From positions 1-49,012 of the IMG/VR virus record IMGVR_UViG_3300023313_000010: 49,012 nt of DNA, one strand, 5' to 3'. Positions 4,691-49,012 of this stretch are shown piece after piece. Both the position numbers and the translations under genes were made by a program. The notes below the pieces were generated by a model. That model saw only the letters and a program-made list of their open reading frames with translations, was not told where the DNA came from and did not search any database. Within the stretch, counting starts at the first letter, position 1. Each line of letters opens with the position of its first letter. Source of the stretch: a virus.

Positions 4691-5136
4691 TGGAAAATGA
4701 GCTACTTAAAAGATTATTACAACACGTCAGTAGTGTATCATTAGCTGTGACTGTTATAAGTTTATACTTGATGGGTGATACAAAATGGTTAGACCCGTAT
4801 TTACCTGAGAATGGTAAATTTCTAATACTTTGTTTACTCATCGGTTTGGTTGTGGTTTATGAATTATCTATTTTGGGTGCTAAACGGATAGATTGCAAAG
4901 TTGGTAAGTTAGACTTAAAAGTGCAAGAAGTGTTATTAAATATGGAAATAAATAGCCTTGTTCAAGCTGTGAATGGGTTATATGGAAGATTTTTAGCCAG
5001 TGGTGATGAATTTATAACCAATGAATACACTATAAAAGAATTATCGGATTTGACCGACAAACGATTGAGGCTTGGTGTCAACAGTTATACACAAGGCAGA
5101 TTAGAATTTTTAAACAGTAAGATTAAATTAGGGTAA
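4690..5136 (+). CDS. Two-pass membrane protein, unknown function
   Basis: A 148-residue protein with two hydrophobic segments, roughly residues 14-28 (VSSVSLAVTVISLYLM) and 43-62 (KFLILCLLIGLVVVYELSIL), followed by an 85-residue soluble helical tail. It starts on the last base of the previous stop. Two-segment membrane proteins can be holins, but this one lies in the head region, far from the spanin genes, and its long cytoplasmic tail is not holin-like. I therefore call it only a membrane protein. Confidence 0.75.
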   Translation: MENELLKRLLQHVSSVSLAVTVISLYLMGDTKWLDPYLPENGKFLILCLLIGLVVVYELSILGAKRIDCKVGKLDLKVQEVLLNMEINSLVQAVNGLYGRFLASGDEFITNEYTIKELSDLTDKRLRLGVNSYTQGRLEFLNSKIKLG

Positions 5137-10625: not shown

Positions 10626-12719
10626 ATGGCTACCAAAATAAAATCAGTAAAAAATCAATGCAGAGCTATTGCTTCGTTTTTACCTAAAACCGTAAACGAA
10701 AAAGACAGAACAATACAAGTTGTATTGACAACAGGGCAACAGGGTAAACGGTATGATTGGAATACCGATACTGAGTATCTTGAAGAACTCGATGTTACCC
10801 CTCAGTCAATTAACACTGAACGATTAGACCGTGGTCTTTCTGTAATTAACGACCACCAAAAATATAATGGTGTCGATGGTGTTTTCGGTATTACAGAAGA
10901 TTACGTTATTGAAAATAACCAGATTATAGCTACAGTAAGATTCGCTTCTGACGCTGATAGCGATATAAAATTTCAAAAGGTGCGTGAAGGTATATTGAAG
11001 CATGTAAGCTTAGGCTATGCTGTTACTGAATACACTCCGATACCTCAAACAAGTGGTCATTTACCTGTTGTGAGAGCAACAAACTGGACACCTACTGAGT
11101 TATCTTTTGTGATAACACCTTTTGAAACCACCAATGGTGTCAGAAATAACTCTGACACTGATTATTATGAAATTAAAATTAAAGAGGAAAATATTATGAC
11201 CCTTGCTCAACTTCGCGCCGCGTTAGCGGATGCTCAAACGAGAGGCGCACCTGCGGATGAAATCCAAGGGTTACAGCGTCAAATTGATGCGTTATCACCA
11301 CCTGCTACTCCTGCTACTCCTGCTACTCCTGCTACTCCTGCTACTCCTGCTACTCCTGCTGTAGCGGCAGAACCAGTACGTGCTATTGCTACTCCTGCTA
11401 CTCCTGCTGTTGATTTGGATAAAGTTCGTTCAGCAGAAAGAGGTAGTCTACAACCAATGATTGACGCGTGTCGTTCAGCAGGTTTGAAAGATGAGTTTGC
11501 TATTGCAAATTTCAATCAAGGTGTGACGTTAGACGCACACCGTGGGTTGGTTATTGATGAACTGGGTAAAGAAAGTTCTGAAAATATTATCCGAACTGCG
11601 GCAACATCATTAAATGGTGACGATAATAGTGACCAAAAAGAACAAACTCGAAAAGCTGTAGAAAGTGCTTTAGCATATCGCGCGGGTGATAATTCTATTG
11701 AATTGACTGACAATATTCGTCAATTCTCAGGTTTAACTATGCACGAGACCGCACGAGCATTGCTTTCTGCACAAGGCGTTAACACAAATATGATGTCTCG
11801 TATGAAAGTTGCCGAACGTGCTTTTCATTCAACTTCGGATTTTCCTTTAATCCTTGAAAATGTAATGAATAAAAATCTTCAAGCGGCATATACTGAGACA
11901 CCTCAAACTTTTGCCGACTTAGGCCGTAGAACTACGGTAAATGACTTTCGTGAAAAACACACTTATAACCTTGGTTCTGCTCCTAATTTATTACCATTGG
12001 GTCAACATGGTGAGTACAAAGCAGGTACTTTTGGTGAAGGTAAAGAAAAGTACAGTATCGCCACTTACGCACGTAAGATAGGGTTTACTCGTCAAATGCT
12101 TATCAACGATGACATGAGTGCGTTAGATCGTGTTCCTGCTATGTTTGGTGCGGCAGGTTCGCGTTTAGAATCAAACATTGTTTGGGGTCTAATCCTTGGT
12201 TATGATTTCTTTACAAACACGGCAGTTCCTACATTGATGGGTGATGGTTTAGATGTGTTCCATGCGAATCATGGAAACTTGTTGACAGCAGGTTCAGCAT
12301 TCAGTAAAGCCGCATTGTCTAATCTTCGTAAGCTTGGTCGTAAGCAGAAAACTCATGGTGGCGAATTTATGAATGTTGTTTATGACACATTGGTAATTCC
12401 TGAAGATATCGAAACCACTGTTGATGAAATCATTACACAAACCATCTTGGCTTCTGTAACTGGTGAAACTAACCCATTCCGTGGTAAGTTTATGCCTCGT
12501 GTAGAACCTCGTTTGAGTCAAGTTTCACAAACAGGTTATTATGCTTTTGCTAAAGGCATGGAAACTTTCGAGTACGCTTATCTTGCAGGTGAAGAAGGTA
12601 TGCACACAGAAGCCAGTACATCTACCGATATCGATGGTATGGAAATCAAAGTTCGTAAAGATTTTGGTGCAGGTATGATTGATTATCGTGGCATGGCTAA
12701 AGCAACAGGCGCGGCTTAA
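10626..12719 (+). CDS. Prohead protease / major capsid protein fusion
   Basis: A 697-residue fusion. Residues 1-190 are an HK97-type (peptidase S78-like) prohead protease, with a candidate catalytic His in VINDHQKY (H77) and Ser in KHVSLGYAV (S128). Residues about 191-225 are helical (TLAQLRAALADAQTRGAP) and resemble a scaffold or delta domain, followed by a PAT repeat linker. Residues about 330-697 form the capsid subunit (for example ADLGRRTTVNDFREKHTYNL, KIGFTRQMLINDD). A strong internal ribosome-binding site (GAGG, 8 bases before ATG at 11196, in frame) could give a separate 507-residue scaffold-capsid product. Such fused protease-capsid genes are known in several siphoviruses. Confidence 0.92.
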   Translation: MATKIKSVKNQCRAIASFLPKTVNEKDRTIQVVLTTGQQGKRYDWNTDTEYLEELDVTPQSINTERLDRGLSVINDHQKYNGVDGVFGITEDYVIENNQIIATVRFASDADSDIKFQKVREGILKHVSLGYAVTEYTPIPQTSGHLPVVRATNWTPTELSFVITPFETTNGVRNNSDTDYYEIKIKEENIMTLAQLRAALADAQTRGAPADEIQGLQRQIDALSPPATPATPATPATPATPATPAVAAEPVRAIATPATPAVDLDKVRSAERGSLQPMIDACRSAGLKDEFAIANFNQGVTLDAHRGLVIDELGKESSENIIRTAATSLNGDDNSDQKEQTRKAVESALAYRAGDNSIELTDNIRQFSGLTMHETARALLSAQGVNTNMMSRMKVAERAFHSTSDFPLILENVMNKNLQAAYTETPQTFADLGRRTTVNDFREKHTYNLGSAPNLLPLGQHGEYKAGTFGEGKEKYSIATYARKIGFTRQMLINDDMSALDRVPAMFGAAGSRLESNIVWGLILGYDFFTNTAVPTLMGDGLDVFHANHGNLLTAGSAFSKAALSNLRKLGRKQKTHGGEFMNVVYDTLVIPEDIETTVDEIITQTILASVTGETNPFRGKFMPRVEPRLSQVSQTGYYAFAKGMETFEYAYLAGEEGMHTEASTSTDIDGMEIKVRKDFGAGMIDYRGMAKATGAA
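11196..11198 (+). promoter_or_regulatory. Internal in-frame start with strong Shine-Dalgarno
   Basis: The sequence GAGGAAAATATTATG places a good ribosome-binding site before codon 191 of the fusion. The stretch AGGAAAATATTATG is identical to the initiation region of the capsid cement gene at 12778. Internal initiation would yield the capsid part without the protease. Use in vivo is inferred. Confidence 0.6.
11301..11409. repeat. PAT tandem repeat encoding a linker
   Basis: The 9-base unit CCTGCTACT repeats six times in a row from 11301 (PATPATPAT in protein) and reappears at 11392-11409. It encodes a flexible proline/alanine/threonine linker between the scaffold-like helix and the capsid domain. 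Confidence 0.85.
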
Positions 12720-35398: not shown

Positions 35399-36235
35399 AT
35401 GAGTAAAGGAATTTTAGAAAATATTTTAGAAAAAATAACGTCTGTAGAATCAACTGTTAACGAGCTTGCCTCGTCAATGAGTGGTGGAACGCCTGTTGCT
35501 CCACTACCAACGTCAATTACAGATAGTGATGACAACGGTATTGACGGCGAAATGGCTAGATCATTAGCACCCGATGGTTTAGACCCTAAAGAAATGCCAT
35601 ACACTAATTCAGCAGGACAACTTGTCGATATCGAAGGTAACGTATGGACAGAAGGTGTTCACGCCTCAACCAAAACTTGCACCGTGAAAGGTGTTTTCAA
35701 AAAAAGTAAAGCTAAGAATAAACCTGTTGCGCCTGTTGCGCCTGTTGCACCGACTGCACCGACTGCACCGACTGCACCGACTGCACCGACTGCACCTGTT
35801 GCGCCTGTTGCACCGACTGCACCGACTGCACCGACTGCACCTGTTGCAGGTAACAACCCTGTTGCCAAAACAAAGGCTATGGAATATATCACCATGTTAT
35901 CTGACGAGCATAATGTTTCTTATGATCTCATTCTCAGTGTGTTACACGATAAGATGGGTGCTAAAACTTTTGACGAACTAACGGAAGATCAATACCCTGC
36001 TGTTGCTGAGTTATTTGCCACTTGGTCTAATGATATGACTACCGCAACAAGTGACGTTGAGCGTATCGTTACTATTGGCGGAGACCAAGGCGCGGAAGGT
36101 ATTCGGGTTCTTTACACTAACGCAGGTAACGCCAATGGGGTAACACATTTTAATTCTGATGTTTTAGAAGAATTTCTCCCAGAACTTAAAGCATACCGCG
36201 AACAATGGGACGCTTACGCCGACTCTTTGAAATAA
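35399..36235 (+). CDS. Early protein with PVAPTAP repeat linker
   Basis: A 278-residue protein. The N-terminal helix [20 protein letters not shown] may be a coiled coil. The next part includes [20 protein letters not shown] (about 87-106), a segment I recall from early phage proteins. Then comes a proline/alanine/threonine repeat (about 113-153), and a helical C-terminal domain ([20 protein letters not shown] onward). The first gene after the rightward promoter, it is probably abundant early. The ATG at 35399 follows GAGAG by 8 bases; the ATG at 35384 has no ribosome-binding site. Function unknown. Confidence 0.75.
35724..35850. repeat. PVAP/TAP tandem repeat
   Basis: The 9-base words CCTGTTGCG, CCTGTTGCA and CCGACTGCA alternate about fourteen times, coding PVA and PTA units. 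The same words appear at 39430-39641. Confidence 0.85.
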
Positions 36236-36309: not shown

Positions 36310-36726
36310 ATGAGTAAATTTAGTTTAGGTGCTTTTGTAGAGATTGATTGCAGTGGTGAAGAAGGTAAAATCATTGGCACTGCACAATATATTGACGGGA
36401 AAGATAAATGTTTGATACGTTATCAAGCCGCTGATGGTCGTGCTGTCGAGTCATGGTGGGATGAAGACGCTTTATCCTTGGCTAAAAGAAACTCCGACTC
36501 TGACGCAGTTAAAGAGTTTATTAAGATGAATGCGAAATTTGTTAGTTACCCTTCTAGCAATCCAGAAGATATAAAAATGACAAATTCTGGTGATAATAGC
36601 CAAGAACAGTGGGATGAAGAAATCGGTAAGTTCCTTGGAAATCTTGGACATATTGCGATAAAGAATGAAGAAGGTAAATTTATTCTTAAAGGTGAATTGC
36701 ATCACATAGATTTTTCTGACGAATAA
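36310..36726 (+). CDS. Small protein with KOW/Tudor-like N-terminal domain
   Basis: A 138-residue protein. Residues 1-55 (GAFVEIDCSGEEGKIIGTAQ, CLIRYQAADGRAVESWW) look like an SH3-like barrel of the KOW or Tudor type and resemble the N-terminus of the protein at 38419. The rest is acidic and helical. Its stop overlaps the next ATG (TAATG). Function unknown; nucleic-acid or protein contact is possible for this fold. Confidence 0.7.
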   Translation: MSKFSLGAFVEIDCSGEEGKIIGTAQYIDGKDKCLIRYQAADGRAVESWWDEDALSLAKRNSDSDAVKEFIKMNAKFVSYPSSNPEDIKMTNSGDNSQEQWDEEIGKFLGNLGHIAIKNEEGKFILKGELHHIDFSDE

Positions 36727-37826
36727 TGGGTATTCAACACTCTAATGTAGGTGCATCAATAAGCCATATTTACATGAACTGCAATGCGGCTACCGCTATG
36801 TCAAAAGGCTGTCCTAATCCGACAAATGAAGCCGCTGAGTTAGGTACTGCCGCCCATGCTCTTGGTGAATTTTGCCTCACATTAGGTGTTGATGCTTACG
36901 ATTGTATAGGTTTGGTTTTTAACGGGTTTACTGTTGACACCAGTATGGTAGAAGCTGTTCAATTATATGTCGGTTTTATCCGTAGTTTATCCGCAAAATA
37001 TGGCGTACCCCCAATGTTGGAGAAAAGGGTGTGTATGTCGTCAGTTGGTGATAATGTTTTCGGAACTGCTGATTGTATTTTACTGACCGAGCGTGTATTA
37101 GATATTTCTGATTACAAACATGGTTATGTTGTAGTAAATGTGGAAAACAATACTCAAGCAATTTTTTATGCCATAGCAACACTTGATACTTATCATCTTT
37201 GGGATAAAGTGTTGGAAGTGAACACTCACATTATTCAACCAAGAGCCGACCATGAGAAAGGCTCTATTAGAACTTTCTCATACACCATTGCTGAATTAAG
37301 AATATGGCAACGTAAATTTTATAACGCAATAAAAAATCCTAACATTATACCTAATGCAGGAACACATTGTAGATATTGTTTAGCGTCAACTAAATGTAGA
37401 ACTAGAATGACTCGTACTATTGAGTTGGCATATAGATCAACACCCGACGATAAAGTTACAACCGAAGAACTCACTCAGATATTTTTAGAGAAAGACTCGA
37501 TTATTGCACACTTAAACAAGATAACAGATGCTATGACCGCAAAAGCAAAAGAAGGTCTCAAATTCGAAGGTCTCAAATTGGTTAAAGGTCGTAAACATTT
37601 TGTCTGCACCAATCAAGATGAATTTGTTAAAGAGGCGGGTGAAAAAGGTGAGTTGTTATTCGATAAGAAATTAAAAAGTATGTCTGCGGTAAAAGGCATA
37701 GTCGGTAAAAACCTGACTGAGAAATATTTTGTAAAACCTGATGGCGCGGCAGTTCTTGTGCCTATGTCAGATTCAAGACCTAGTATAAGCCAATCCGCGA
37801 TTGGTATTTTTGAACCGATTAAATAA
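36726..37826 (+). CDS. DUF2800 family nuclease (PD-(D/E)XK type)
   Basis: A 366-residue protein. The N-terminal AAELGTAAHALGEFCL (about 37-52) and the central VFGTADCILL (about 115-124) with DISDYKHGYVVV (about 130-141) are typical of the DUF2800/Cas4-RecB-like nuclease superfamily. Asp in TAD and Asp-x-Lys in DYKHG are the probable metal ligands and catalytic lysine. Cysteines in THCRYCLASTKC (about 217-228) could form an iron-sulfur or zinc site as in related AddB-like enzymes. It probably works in recombination with the ssDNA-binding protein encoded downstream. Confidence 0.87.
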   Translation: MGIQHSNVGASISHIYMNCNAATAMSKGCPNPTNEAAELGTAAHALGEFCLTLGVDAYDCIGLVFNGFTVDTSMVEAVQLYVGFIRSLSAKYGVPPMLEKRVCMSSVGDNVFGTADCILLTERVLDISDYKHGYVVVNVENNTQAIFYAIATLDTYHLWDKVLEVNTHIIQPRADHEKGSIRTFSYTIAELRIWQRKFYNAIKNPNIIPNAGTHCRYCLASTKCRTRMTRTIELAYRSTPDDKVTTEELTQIFLEKDSIIAHLNKITDAMTAKAKEGLKFEGLKLVKGRKHFVCTNQDEFVKEAGEKGELLFDKKLKSMSAVKGIVGKNLTEKYFVKPDGAAVLVPMSDSRPSISQSAIGIFEPIK

Positions 37827-38418: not shown

Positions 38419-38802
38419 ATGAGTAAATTTAAAGTTGGACAGTCTATAGCTTTCTCGACGGGTCTTGGCAAGGTCATGGAAACCTCCCCTACATCGGATG
38501 GTAAAACCCAATATCGAGTGCGTTGTGATTTTACAGATTATTGGGTCAGTGAGGGTGAATTAGAACTAATTGAGACTCCTGTTGAGCCTGAGACTCCTGT
38601 TGCACCTGAGACTCCTGTTGCACCTGAGACTCCTGTTGAGCCTGAGACTCCTGTTGAGCCTGAGACTCCTGTTGCACCTGAGACTCCTGTTGCACCTGAG
38701 ACTCCTGTTGAGCCTGAGACTCCTGTTGAGCCTGAGACTCCTGTTGAGCCTGAGACTCCTGTTGCACCAAAAATCCCTAAAACTAAAAAAGGTAAAAAAT
38801 AA
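38419..38802 (+). CDS. Small SH3-like protein with ETPVxP repeat tail
   Basis: A 127-residue protein. Residues 1-50 ([38 protein letters not shown]) look like the KOW/SH3-like domain seen at 36310. Residues 52-117 are eleven six-residue repeats ETPV(E/A)P, followed by a basic end (KTKKGKK). The tail is presumably an extended spacer. The gene starts after AATAGGT and its stop overlaps the next ATG. Function unknown. Confidence 0.72.
38572..38769. repeat. Eleven 18-bp tandem repeats
   Basis: The unit GAGACTCCTGTTGAGCCT or its GCA variant repeats eleven times without interruption (198 bp), coding ETPV(E/A)P. All six frames are open across it, which creates spurious ORFs. Confidence 0.92.
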
Positions 38803-39770
38803 TGAGTTCACGTACTATATTTTCTGATTTATTCAGAGTTAGTTACCCTAATCTGAAAATCCCTTATGCAAATTCACCTACCGACACACCTAAATATGGT
38901 GTGTCGATGATGTTTCCGCAAACAGGTGTTTGTCCTATTAATAATGCCCCTACATCTTGGCAGAATATACTCACAGCACTGGATGAAGTTTGTCAAGATG
39001 AATGGAAATTGACCTTTGCAGAAGCTACAGGCGTGGGTATGGGCATTGAATACCCACCTAAATTTAAAGATGGTAATACAGTTTGGCAAAAAGATGTACA
39101 AGGTAATCCAATCCCTAATTTGGTTGAACCAAATGCGGCGGGAATGACCTTAATCAATGTTAAAAATGTTGACCCAGTTGGTTGTGTTGACCCAACAGGT
39201 TTATCGGAAATTGACCCTTCTGCTATATTTGCAGGGTCTTGGGCTAAAGCTCAGTTAGAAGTTTCTGCTTATACAGGTAGAAAAGGTCGGGTTGTTTCAA
39301 TTAAGTTGCTGAATATTATGTTGGCCTATAAAGACACCCCTATCGGTAACAAACCTGTTCAACAATCTGCCTCAGAAGCTTTTGGCGCAATGGGTGTGTC
39401 TGACACTAACATTGACACCAATGCTTTTGCAACTCCTGTTGCACCGACTGCCCCTGTTGCACCGACTGCCCCTGTTGCCCCTGTTGCACCGACTGCGCCT
39501 GTTGCTCCTGTTGCACCGACTGCACCTGTTGCTCCTGTTGCTCCTGTTGCACCGACTGCTCCTGTTGCCCCTGTTGCACCGACTACACCGACTGCCCCTG
39601 TTGCACCGACTGCCCCTGTTGCACCGACTACACCGACTGCTCCTGCCGTAAATAATGACCCTGTGATAATGAATGCGGGGCAACCACCTTATGCGGATAT
39701 GTTAAAAGCAGGTTGGACGGATGAAACCCTTGTGGCTCATGGTCATGCTGTTGTGAATTTCACGACATGA
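38802..39770 (+). CDS. DUF2815 ssDNA-binding protein with repeat tail
   Basis: A 322-residue protein. The start [20 protein letters not shown], then [28 protein letters not shown], and [20 protein letters not shown] with KLLNIML are the landmarks of DUF2815, an OB-fold family related in role to T7 gp2.5. Residues about 210-285 are PVAP/PTAP repeats and the C-terminus contains [17 protein letters not shown]. It would coat single strands during replication and recombination next to the nucleases encoded on both sides. The repeat tail is an unusual addition. Confidence 0.85.
39430..39641. repeat. PVAP/TAP tandem repeat in ssDNA-binding protein gene
   Basis: About two dozen 9-base words of the types CCTGTTGCN and CCGACTGCN or CCGACTACA, coding PVA, PTA and PTT units. 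The words are the same as those at 35724-35850. Confidence 0.85.
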
Positions 39771-44238: not shown

Positions 44239-44613
44239 TGCCACGGTTGGGGCTAAAATTGCCACGGTTGGGGTGTTCTGTAAGTCATTGATTTATAAGG
44301 GATTGCCACGGTTGGGTTTCAAACCGTGGCAACCCTACAGCCCTTTAAAAATGCCGATCGGTCAGCAAATAAGCCCCAACCGTGGCAGATAGTAAAAGAC
44401 TTCTCAAGATGGTATATATAAGTATATATTAAAACCTTGGTTACTGAAAAACCAAGAATCTGAGAAGTGTTTGGCGATCTGCCACGGTTGGGGTGTATTT
44501 GCTGACCGATGCCCATTTTTAAAGGGCTGTAGCCTGCCACGGTTGGGTTTCAAACCGTGGCAATCTTTTATAAATCAATGACTTAGCTTTTGTGGCAACC
44601 GTGGCAACCGTGG
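44239..44613. repeat. Ten CCACGGTT elements
   Basis: Forward copies start at 44241, 44262, 44306, 44482 and 44537; reverse copies (AACCGTGG) at 44322, 44378, 44553, 44597 and 44606. Most are embedded in TGCCACGGTTGGGG. They are GC-rich islands in AT-rich DNA and look like binding sites for one protein. Confidence 0.88.
44281..44585. repeat. Giant nested inverted repeat
   Basis: Bases 44281-44390 are complementary to 44477-44585 over about four fifths of positions with one 1-base shift. Each arm also folds on itself (GCCACGGTT...AACCGTGGC at 44305-44330 and 44536-44561). The 86-base centre continues the symmetry with CTTCTCA (44400-44406)/TGAGAAG (44461-44467) and has its own hairpin CTTGGTT/AACCAAG (44436-44456). 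Confidence 0.9.
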
Positions 44614-44838: not shown

Positions 44839-44939
44839 TATTTAATTAAGTGGATTAATTTAAAATAAAACTTGATTAAGTGGGTTATTCTGTTAAAGTT
44901 CGCAAATCTTAAATAAATAGAGAATAAAGATCATGGCTA
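44839..44939 (+). repeat. Promoter/leader cassette, copy 1
   Basis: These 101 bases recur at 45553-45653 with one difference (G44884/A45598). The cassette holds two iterons, a promoter candidate and the first codons (ATGGCTA) of the gene. A 32-base part (44908-44939) occurs a third time at 45123-45154. Confidence 0.9.
44872..44899 (+). promoter_or_regulatory. Promoter candidate in leader copy 1
   Basis: TTGATT (44872-44877), 16 bases, then TAAAGT (44894-44899) preceded by TGT as an extended -10. An iteron overlaps the -35 box and spacer, so iteron binding could repress it. Confidence 0.45.
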
Positions 44940-45127
44940 GCAATAACCAAAACTTAATGGGTACTTTGAGTGATAAAGACACTTATAATAAAGTGGTCGA
45001 ATTGTGCGAATTAATTTGTGAGCTTGAAAATAAAACAGGTTATAGCGAACAAGCAATTAGACAAGGGTATATAAAAATTGTCACTGGTTTGGCTTATGGT
45101 TCAATTAAACTAAATGAATTAACTTAA
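44933..45127 (+). CDS. Small unknown protein, early cluster
   Basis: Sixty-four residues: MASNNQNLMGTLSDKDTYNK, then acidic helix VVELCELICELENKTG and IRQGYIKIVTGLAYGSIKL. It starts at the end of leader copy 1. No family recognised. Helical and slightly acidic, as is common for phage proteins that bind host targets. Confidence 0.68.
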   Translation: MASNNQNLMGTLSDKDTYNKVVELCELICELENKTGYSEQAIRQGYIKIVTGLAYGSIKLNELT

Positions 45128-45374: not shown

Positions 45375-45563
45375 ATGATGAGTAAAATAGTAAGTAAAAA
45401 AGACACTCAATTAATGATTAAAGCATTAAGAGAAGCTAATTTAAAAGTATCAAAAATCAATAACGGTTATGAGTGCTTCAATAAAAAAAATGTTTTACTT
45501 TTTAAAGCAATAAAAGGTAAAAATAATTATTTAGTAAGAATGAAGGATAATTTATTTAATTAA
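45375..45563 (+). CDS. Small basic protein, early cluster
   Basis: A 62-residue basic protein. The helix QLMIKALREANLKVSK is followed by strands (GYECFNKKNVLLFKAIKGK, NYLVRMKDN), a pattern like small RNA-binding or toxin-type folds such as HicA, though the HicA histidine is missing and I do not claim the family. It starts at 45375 or at the adjacent ATG 45378. Confidence 0.62.
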   Translation: MMSKIVSKKDTQLMIKALREANLKVSKINNGYECFNKKNVLLFKAIKGKNNYLVRMKDNLFN

Positions 45564-45653
45564 GTGGATTAATTTAAAATAAAACTTGATTAAGTGGATT
45601 ATTCTGTTAAAGTTCGCAAATCTTAAATAAATAGAGAATAAAGATCATGGCTA
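45553..45653 (+). repeat. Promoter/leader cassette, copy 2
   Basis: Identical to 44839-44939 apart from one base. It lies between two small genes and would give the second gene group its own promoter. Confidence 0.9.
45586..45613 (+). promoter_or_regulatory. Promoter candidate in leader copy 2
   Basis: TTGATT (45586-45591) and TAAAGT (45608-45613), 16 bases apart, extended by TGT, as in copy 1. Iterons at 45560 and 45590 flank or overlap the -35 box. Confidence 0.45.
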
Positions 45654-47855: not shown

Positions 47856-48106
47856 AAAATTTTATTGAATACTTAGACTTTGGTGTTATGGATAAAAAAG
47901 GGCTTATTAATCCTTGTGGTGACAGGTCTGTTTTTATTTTGGACGGTAGAAATAGTATCGACACAATGATTAATGACGGTTATGAAAACAACGGGATAAG
48001 GAGGCCATTTTATCCTTTTTTTAGGGTTATTAAAAACAATCGTGTTGTTTATTCTAATGTAAAAAAAGGATATCATTTAATAGAGGGCATGAGTCATGGT
48101 AATTGA
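47852..48106 (+). CDS. Small unknown protein, early cluster
   Basis: An 84-residue protein: IEYLDFGVMDKKGLINPCGD, RSVFILDGRNSIDTMINDGY and NNRVVYSNVKKGYHLIEG. It appears to be a compact alpha/beta fold. It overlaps the gene before by 4 bases and the next by 11. No family recognised. Confidence 0.64.
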   Translation: MKNFIEYLDFGVMDKKGLINPCGDRSVFILDGRNSIDTMINDGYENNGIRRPFYPFFRVIKNNRVVYSNVKKGYHLIEGMSHGN

Positions 48107-48293
48107 GCCTTTTTATTTTTTTGTGGTATTGGGTGTTTTTTTTCCAAAACTTATCAATTACATTCTGATATTTATCGCGGTTCAATGGCTTGTTAAAAAA
48201 AATAGAGAACGAGAACGAGAATTAAAACGAAAACGACAATCTAATAAACATAGGAGGTTATTAGATCAAATAATAAACAATAAACCGCTATAA
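48096..48293 (+). CDS. Small membrane protein with basic cytoplasmic tail
   Basis: A 65-residue protein. Hydrophobic residues 2-31 (FYFFVVLGVFFPKLINYILI) form one or two membrane passes. The rest (KKNRERERELKRKRQSNKHR) is extremely basic and may contact nucleic acid or membrane lipids. It is the last gene before the terminator; its stop lies in the terminator loop. Confidence 0.65.
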   Translation: MVIEPFYFFVVLGVFFPKLINYILIFIAVQWLVKKNRERERELKRKRQSNKHRRLLDQIINNKPL

Positions 48294-48307
48294 ACGCGGT
48301 TTTTTTA
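48282..48307 (+). terminator. Rho-independent terminator ending the small-gene cluster
   Basis: AAACCGC (48282-48288) pairs with GCGGTTT (48296-48302), loop TATAAAC, followed by T to 48306. It stops transcription before the tandem array. Confidence 0.88.
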
Positions 48308-48316
48308 TGCGTGTGG

Positions 48317-48847
48317 CATAGCCATAGTCATATAGTCATAGTCATATAGTCATAGTCATATAGTCATATAGCATAAGCATAGTCATATAGCATAAGCATA
48401 GTCATATAGCATAAGCATAGTCATAGTCATATAGTCATAGTCATATAGTCATAGTCATATAGTCATATAGCATAAGCATAGTCATATAGCATAAGCATAG
48501 TCATATAGCATAAGCATAGTCATATAGCATAAGCATAGTCATATAGCATAAGCATAGTCATATAGCATAAGCATAGTCATATAGCATAAGCATAGTCATA
48601 TAGTCATATAGTCATAAGCATAGTCATATAGCATAAGCATAAGCATATAGCATAAGCATAGTCATATAGCATAGTCATATAGCATAAGCATAGTCATATA
48701 GCATAAGCATAGTCATATAGCATAGTCATATAGTCATATAGCATAGTCATATAGCATAAGCATAGTCATATAGCATAGTCATATAGTCATATAGCATATA
48801 GCATAAGCATAGTCATATAGCATAAGTATAGTCATAGTCATATAGCA
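48317..48847. repeat. 531-bp CATA-word tandem array
   Basis: The array is built almost wholly from the words CATAGT, CATATAG(T) and CATAAG. The commonest higher unit is CATAAGCATAGTCATATAG (19 bp); its first part CATAAGCATAG occurs about sixteen times, with a perfect run of consecutive 19-bp units around 48470-48600. It does not code: 19 is not a multiple of three and stops occur in every frame. It is not a CRISPR because there are no unique spacers. It lies between a terminator and the candidate cos region. Confidence 0.93.
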
Positions 48848-48886
48848 CCCTTATGTAGGTTCTTTTCCACTATACTGTGAGTTGCA
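48848..48886. other. Short unique segment between array and cos candidate
   Basis: Contains TATACT at 48871-48876, a possible -10 for the terminase operon, without a convincing -35 box. Nothing else seen. Confidence 0.3.
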
Positions 48887-49012
48887 GGGACGCAGAGGCG
48901 CGGTGGGCAAAAACTCAGAATAACTATGTGCTTTAGAGTGCAGGTGCGTTAGAATGCACATAAATACTTAAACCTACCCCCTAGTTTAAATTTAAAATGA
49001 GTTTGAGAATAT
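48887..49012. repeat. Terminal direct repeat, right copy
   Basis: Identical to 17-142. On the circular genome this copy and the left copy are one segment leading into the HTH gene at 141. Confidence 0.95.

Follow-up and report, generated by a model that had tools for sequence, protein, structure and literature searches.

Right end of the window

The window, which is the whole stretch of DNA analysed here (49,012 nt, IMG/VR virus record IMGVR_UViG_3300023313_000010), carries a repetitive non-coding array near its right end, flanked by the terminator that closes the rightmost operon and, on the other side, by a cos site. The features considered, all on the + strand, are as follows.

1–16: remnant of a non-phage sequence, GTGTGCTCTTCCGTCT, which we take to be the Illumina TruSeq adapter; it ends exactly at the predicted nick
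17–142: left virion end, identical to 48887–49012
58–88: two direct copies of TTAGARTGCA (16-bp repeat), candidate cosB R sites
377–964: terminase small subunit (phrog_57, E 5e-19)
867–2810: terminase large subunit, lambda type (phrog_15, E 1e-206)
36726–37826: phage exonuclease (phrog_69, E 7e-81)
38802–39770: Gp2.5-like single-stranded DNA-binding/annealing protein with C-terminal repeats (phrog_112, E 4e-15)
48096–48293: last ORF left of the array (65 amino acids, no family match)
48282–48306: intrinsic terminator past the last rightward gene (7-bp stem and T-run; end approximate)
48316–48846: CATAGT/CATATAG/CATAAG minisatellite array, delimited by word splitting, repeat search and 8-mer counts
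48316–48513: 99-bp tandem duplication within the array (48316–48414 and 48415–48513, 99% identical)
48459–48603: pure 19-bp run within the array, containing the longest exact repeat (126 bp)
48687–48792: exact 53-bp tandem duplication within the array, from repeat comparison
48857–48863: cosQ, AGGTTCT, the first base 30 nt from the predicted nick, as in lambda
48887–48898: cosN, with a predicted 12-nt 5' cohesive end, GGGACGCAGAGG, followed by CGCGG, placed by the adapter boundary and the contig starts of relatives

The designation of the site as a lambda-type cos is well supported, since the spacing between cosQ and the nick is 30 nt in both phages (the lambda cosQ being GGGTCCT), CGCGG directly follows the 12-nt cohesive end in both, and contig starts and adapters fall at the predicted nick. 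Indeed, contigs L010, L011, L015, L016 and L043 and the B8b record all start at, or within 1–2 bases of, this position. Relatives recovered via TerL or the cos pattern align nearly gap-free around [AG]GGVCGYAGANNCGC, the cos spacing being off by one or two bases in L021 and L024. Lambda and the window also share the same terminase families, with terS then terL to the right of cos, and candidate R sites for cosB were restricted to the two TTAGARTGCA copies. Positions 1–20 of L012 likewise hold an adapter remnant adjoining the predicted cosN nick, and such leftovers on IMG/VR contigs can flag virion ends in metagenomes. Lambda terminase remains on the cosB end after the cut and packages from the cosB side (PMC9026076), and the array is therefore placed at the last-packaged, right virion end. 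The terminator search gave two hits at 48282–48302, one per strand at the same spot, against 0.1 expected in shuffles. Both flanks that the sequence-only reading had given the array, a terminator on one side and a candidate cos on the other, are thus supported, by the terminator search and the lambda-type cos features respectively.

Two other repeated elements were observed in the window. Nested inverted repeats at 44281–44585 (72 nt, 88%; 51 nt, 84%) make up a palindromic element of 300 bp within the non-coding gap at 43.0–44.9 kb, and this is possibly an origin or a MITE. A 101-bp duplication (44839–44939 and 45553–45653, 99% identity) has a third, 33-bp end copy at 45123.

Structure of the array

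Splitting the array at CAT resolved it into four words of 6, 7 or 8 bp, CATAGT (n = 27), CATATAG (n = 22), CATAAG (n = 18) and CATATAGT (n = 10), plus edge variants. It contains 48 distinct 8-mers, compared with 254 ± 18 in first-order Markov shuffles (n = 1000, minimum 205), is the region of lowest sequence complexity in the whole genome, and has stop codons in six of six frames, which confirms its description from the letters as irregular, restricted and non-coding; the limits given at that stage, 48317–48847, were right to within 1–2 bases. Tandem Repeats Finder reported a 19-bp unit in 27.5 copies (score 595). The repeats run head to tail and include nested tandem duplications, exact or near-exact, with lengths of 19, 53 and 99 bp, while words outside the lexicon are confined to the two edges (CATAGC as the first word; a C-to-T change and a last CATATAGC near the end) and the interior is clean of variants. 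Nested duplications, a homogeneous interior and variant edges are likewise features of minisatellite or VNTR loci generally, from which the window array differs in sitting at a phage packaging end. The earlier suggestion of slippage or unequal exchange, drawn from the order of the words, is backed by these duplications, the clean interior and the edge-only variants. A CRISPR array was considered and rejected, as there are only four words and no unique spacers between constant repeats.

The proposal that phased CATA/TATG steps bend the DNA was rejected. Predicted net curvature, an estimate based on dinucleotide step values reportedly those of Olson et al. 1998, was 4.9 degrees per 105 bp in the array against a genome mean of 11.9, and the 19-bp unit is out of helical phase. 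Single-strand folding of the array was no better than that of shuffles, and an Rfam search returned no match.

The possibility that the array is an assembly artefact, in the form of a chimera or false expansion, was considered given the adapter residue at the start of the contig and a copy number right at the k-mer limit of the assembly. At 126 bp (48459 versus 48478, offset 19), the longest exact repeat within the array is equal in length to the terminal overlap of the contig (126 bp, 17–142 and 48887–49012), a coincidence indicative of an assembler k-mer limit near 127. Such a limit shortens arrays by collapse, however, and cannot create one, so that the copy number of the 19-bp unit in 48459–48603 is probably a minimum and the true length of the array may exceed that assembled. 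Since a single contig spans the array with unique sequence on both flanks, and arrays occupy this slot also in 1/44 and 2.096.O, isolates that were sequenced independently, the existence of the array is hardly in doubt and an artefact is highly improbable.

Arrays in the same slot of related phages

The corresponding slot, defined as the gap from the terminator of the last gene to cosQ, was compared among relatives. Shewanella phage 1/44 (KJ018213), whose TerL is 64% identical to that of the window, has an irregular non-coding array of about 480 bp in the same slot that is built from different words, CACATCATC, AGCATATGA and AGGTAGTC. The Nahant phages 2.096.O (MG592666) and 1.083.O (MG592458) have CAT-based arrays there, which at 110–154 bp and with a trinucleotide base are unlike that of the window, and in the GC-rich relatives L017 and L023 the sequence left of cosQ, at the contig ends, is an array of ACCAGC/CAGCAC words, both contigs starting within their own arrays. 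In the least complex 130 nt left of cosQ, the number of distinct 7-mers out of 124 was 19 in the window, 22 in 1/44, 52 in 2.096.O, 19 in 1.083.O, 6 in L017 and 36 in L023; L024 was intermediate (91), the remaining phages had at least 102, and lambda (J02459), which has no array left of cosQ, had 122. Conversely, the array is absent from six relatives in which cosQ and cosN are intact (1.049.O, 1.050.O, 1.055.O, L013, L020 and L021), and these include sisters of array-bearing phages, with 1.049.O, 1.050.O and 1.055.O grouping with 1/44, and L020 with L017.

Presence and absence of the array alternate along the TerL tree, and turnover appears to be rapid. Array words differ even among phages with 77% identical TerL, and the interrupting words differ between 2.096.O and 1.083.O, in which TerL is 99.7% identical. 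Furthermore, the array-less 1.055.O contains ATCACATCATCACATC, a seed of 16 nt that recurs in the array of 1/44. Judged from these sequences, the window array is real and is a hypervariable minisatellite that lies next to a lambda-type cos. Because relatives carry other words at the same place, and close cousins none, the probable interpretation is a hot spot where repeats grow at the packaged genome's end, as opposed to a fixed packaging signal. A role in buffering genome length was rejected, as array-less genomes (45.0–47.7 kb) and array-bearing genomes (44.7–49.6 kb) showed no clear pattern.

Several further observations were made in these genomes. The 1.083.O record (L025), at about position 4830, retains the array but not cosQ, cosN or the first part of the left end, all of which its near twin 2.096.O has, and this loss is likely to be an assembly deletion at the repeat. 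Orphan cosQ–cosN sites, with no relative of the window TerL, were present in L057 (a Marinobacterium MAG), L058 (Psychromonas) and L069 (Neptuniibacter), which, going by these sites, are candidate phage satellites that may borrow the terminase of the window's clade. In L015, L022 and L024, terL is broken by an intein-like insertion at one common place. A 14-bp palindrome, ACTGTTRYAACAGT, is repeated on both sides of cos in the Nahant phages and 1/44 (L027–L029), and is a candidate operator or TerS site.

Searches beyond this set yielded no further match. An exact 19-mer of the array identified no second contig in IMG/VR, and blastn of the array region against phages, with the low-complexity filter on, gave no match. 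Scans with the cos pattern for additional right ends gave chance matches only, the same pattern revealed no new site across 390 genomes from the order of Marinobacterium lutimaris, and searches with the primase and right-end genes found no relatives. The array word occurred in paper texts as chance short matches only, none of them concerning phage arrays by title, and nothing relevant was found in the literature on tandem repeats at cos. The initial statement that no element of this kind was known to be described has to be qualified: the feature is unremarked in the texts searched, but array-bearing relatives are deposited and the 1.083.O record annotates its array as CRISPR spacers.

Physical properties and functional alternatives

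Despite their different words, the arrays have physical traits in common. The frequency of pyrimidine–purine steps is 0.31–0.37 in all six, compared with 0.25–0.27 in the background, folding is low in all six, and C exceeds G in five of six; these common traits could reflect selection for a physical property. One such role would be in packaging or ejection, with a flexible, unstructured last-packaged end, rich in pyrimidine–purine steps, either slowing or easing translocation and so allowing terminase to recognise cosQ/cosN, or aiding ejection, and with selection acting on physics rather than on sequence. The raised step density and low folding would be consistent with this, as would the position of the array, which adjoins cosQ on its left at the last-packaged end. 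However, the six relatives with intact cosQ–cosN have no array, neither does lambda, nor do the orphan cos sites of L057, L058 and L069, and the window array has no net curvature, all of which render such an element unlikely. The more specific packaging or protein-binding element envisaged at the outset is unsupported, because the words are not conserved among relatives and the six intact-cos relatives lack arrays.

A second potential role is that of a transcription insulator, in which the unstructured and often C-rich, G-poor RNA of the array would load Rho behind a leaky intrinsic terminator and so keep right-end operon transcripts from running through cos into the packaging genes. The array begins directly past the terminator, 9 of 13 relatives reach the 93rd percentile or higher for the excess of C over G in the gap (among them 1.050.O, 1.055.O and L022, which have no strong array), and in almost all relatives the gaps fold less than background. 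These rut-like traits, unstructured RNA and C over G on the strand reading toward cos, hold for most relatives but the C excess does not extend to the window, where C and G are equal at 0.16 each, and L013, L020 and L021 show no clear C/G skew; an insulator is accordingly viewed as improbable. Many short, near-identical words might also suggest an iteron-like array that serves replication or partition, or acts as a decoy, through binding of a phage or host protein. That words differ at 77% TerL identity and interruptions at 99.7%, that sister phages are without arrays, and that word lengths of 6, 7 and 8 disrupt any fixed spacing make this quite improbable, and no word at constant spacing was found to be conserved across relatives.

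Origin and turnover of the array

The explanation given most weight, at roughly even odds (about 0.5), is that the array is a right-end minisatellite that arose from local seed sequence and turns over by slippage and annealing, probably aided by cut ends together with the phage exonuclease and annealing protein. Lying between cos and the terminator that ends the rightmost operon, the non-coding slot would be tolerated as a site for the array, and short local seed words would allow arrays to be born repeatedly and independently. Replication slippage and misaligned single-strand annealing would then account for growth, shrinkage and homogenisation, a reading favoured because of the edge variants, nested duplications, seed birth, rapid turnover and presence or absence among sisters. 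Once cosN is cut, terminase would stay on the cosB end and the right end may be left open to the phage's own exonuclease and to its annealing protein, and the slot may be favoured because it combines a non-coding gap with an exposed cut right end. The array itself would be dispensable for packaging. Against this explanation are the length of the array, which is large relative to a compact genome, and the physical traits common to the six arrays, which may point to selection.

In classical lambda work, Stahl and colleagues reportedly called cos a recombinator for Red. Red acts from DNA ends through annealing (PMC2327257). Within the window, in-frame tandem repeats of 9 or 18 bp are present in four ORFs (11301–11408, 35723–35841, 38571–38764 and 39435–39664), and 1/44, 2.096.O and 1.083.O have repeats in some of the same genes, some at homologous positions, including the annealing protein in its C-terminal region. 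Since repeats occur also inside genes of array-bearing genomes, repeat growth is general. Also against the explanation, the recombination genes would be no predictor of arrays, because array-less relatives probably carry the same ones.

The slippage and end-exposure account could also be combined with a physical role. The right virion end would then be a telomere-like repeat zone, independent of sequence, that a clade of lambda-terminase phages maintains, with regrowth from local seeds through cos-initiated annealing and with selection for physical properties (little structure, flexibility, often C over G) that aid packaging termination or insulate transcription. This combination is viewed as unlikely, and there is a modest chance that the array has a sequence-independent function.

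Significance

The recurrence of the array in one phage clade, with different words in 1/44, 2.096.O, 1.083.O, L017 and L023, is new here, and indicates a repeat hot spot that recurs at a fixed position, the last-packaged end of cos phages. It ties the ends cut by terminase to annealing recombination by the phage and to the birth of microsatellites, a connection open to testing. Arrays of this type may explain the right-end breaks and losses in assemblies of the clade, and should not be annotated as CRISPR. Should the array indeed have a physical role, the lambda packaging site would gain a sequence-independent part.
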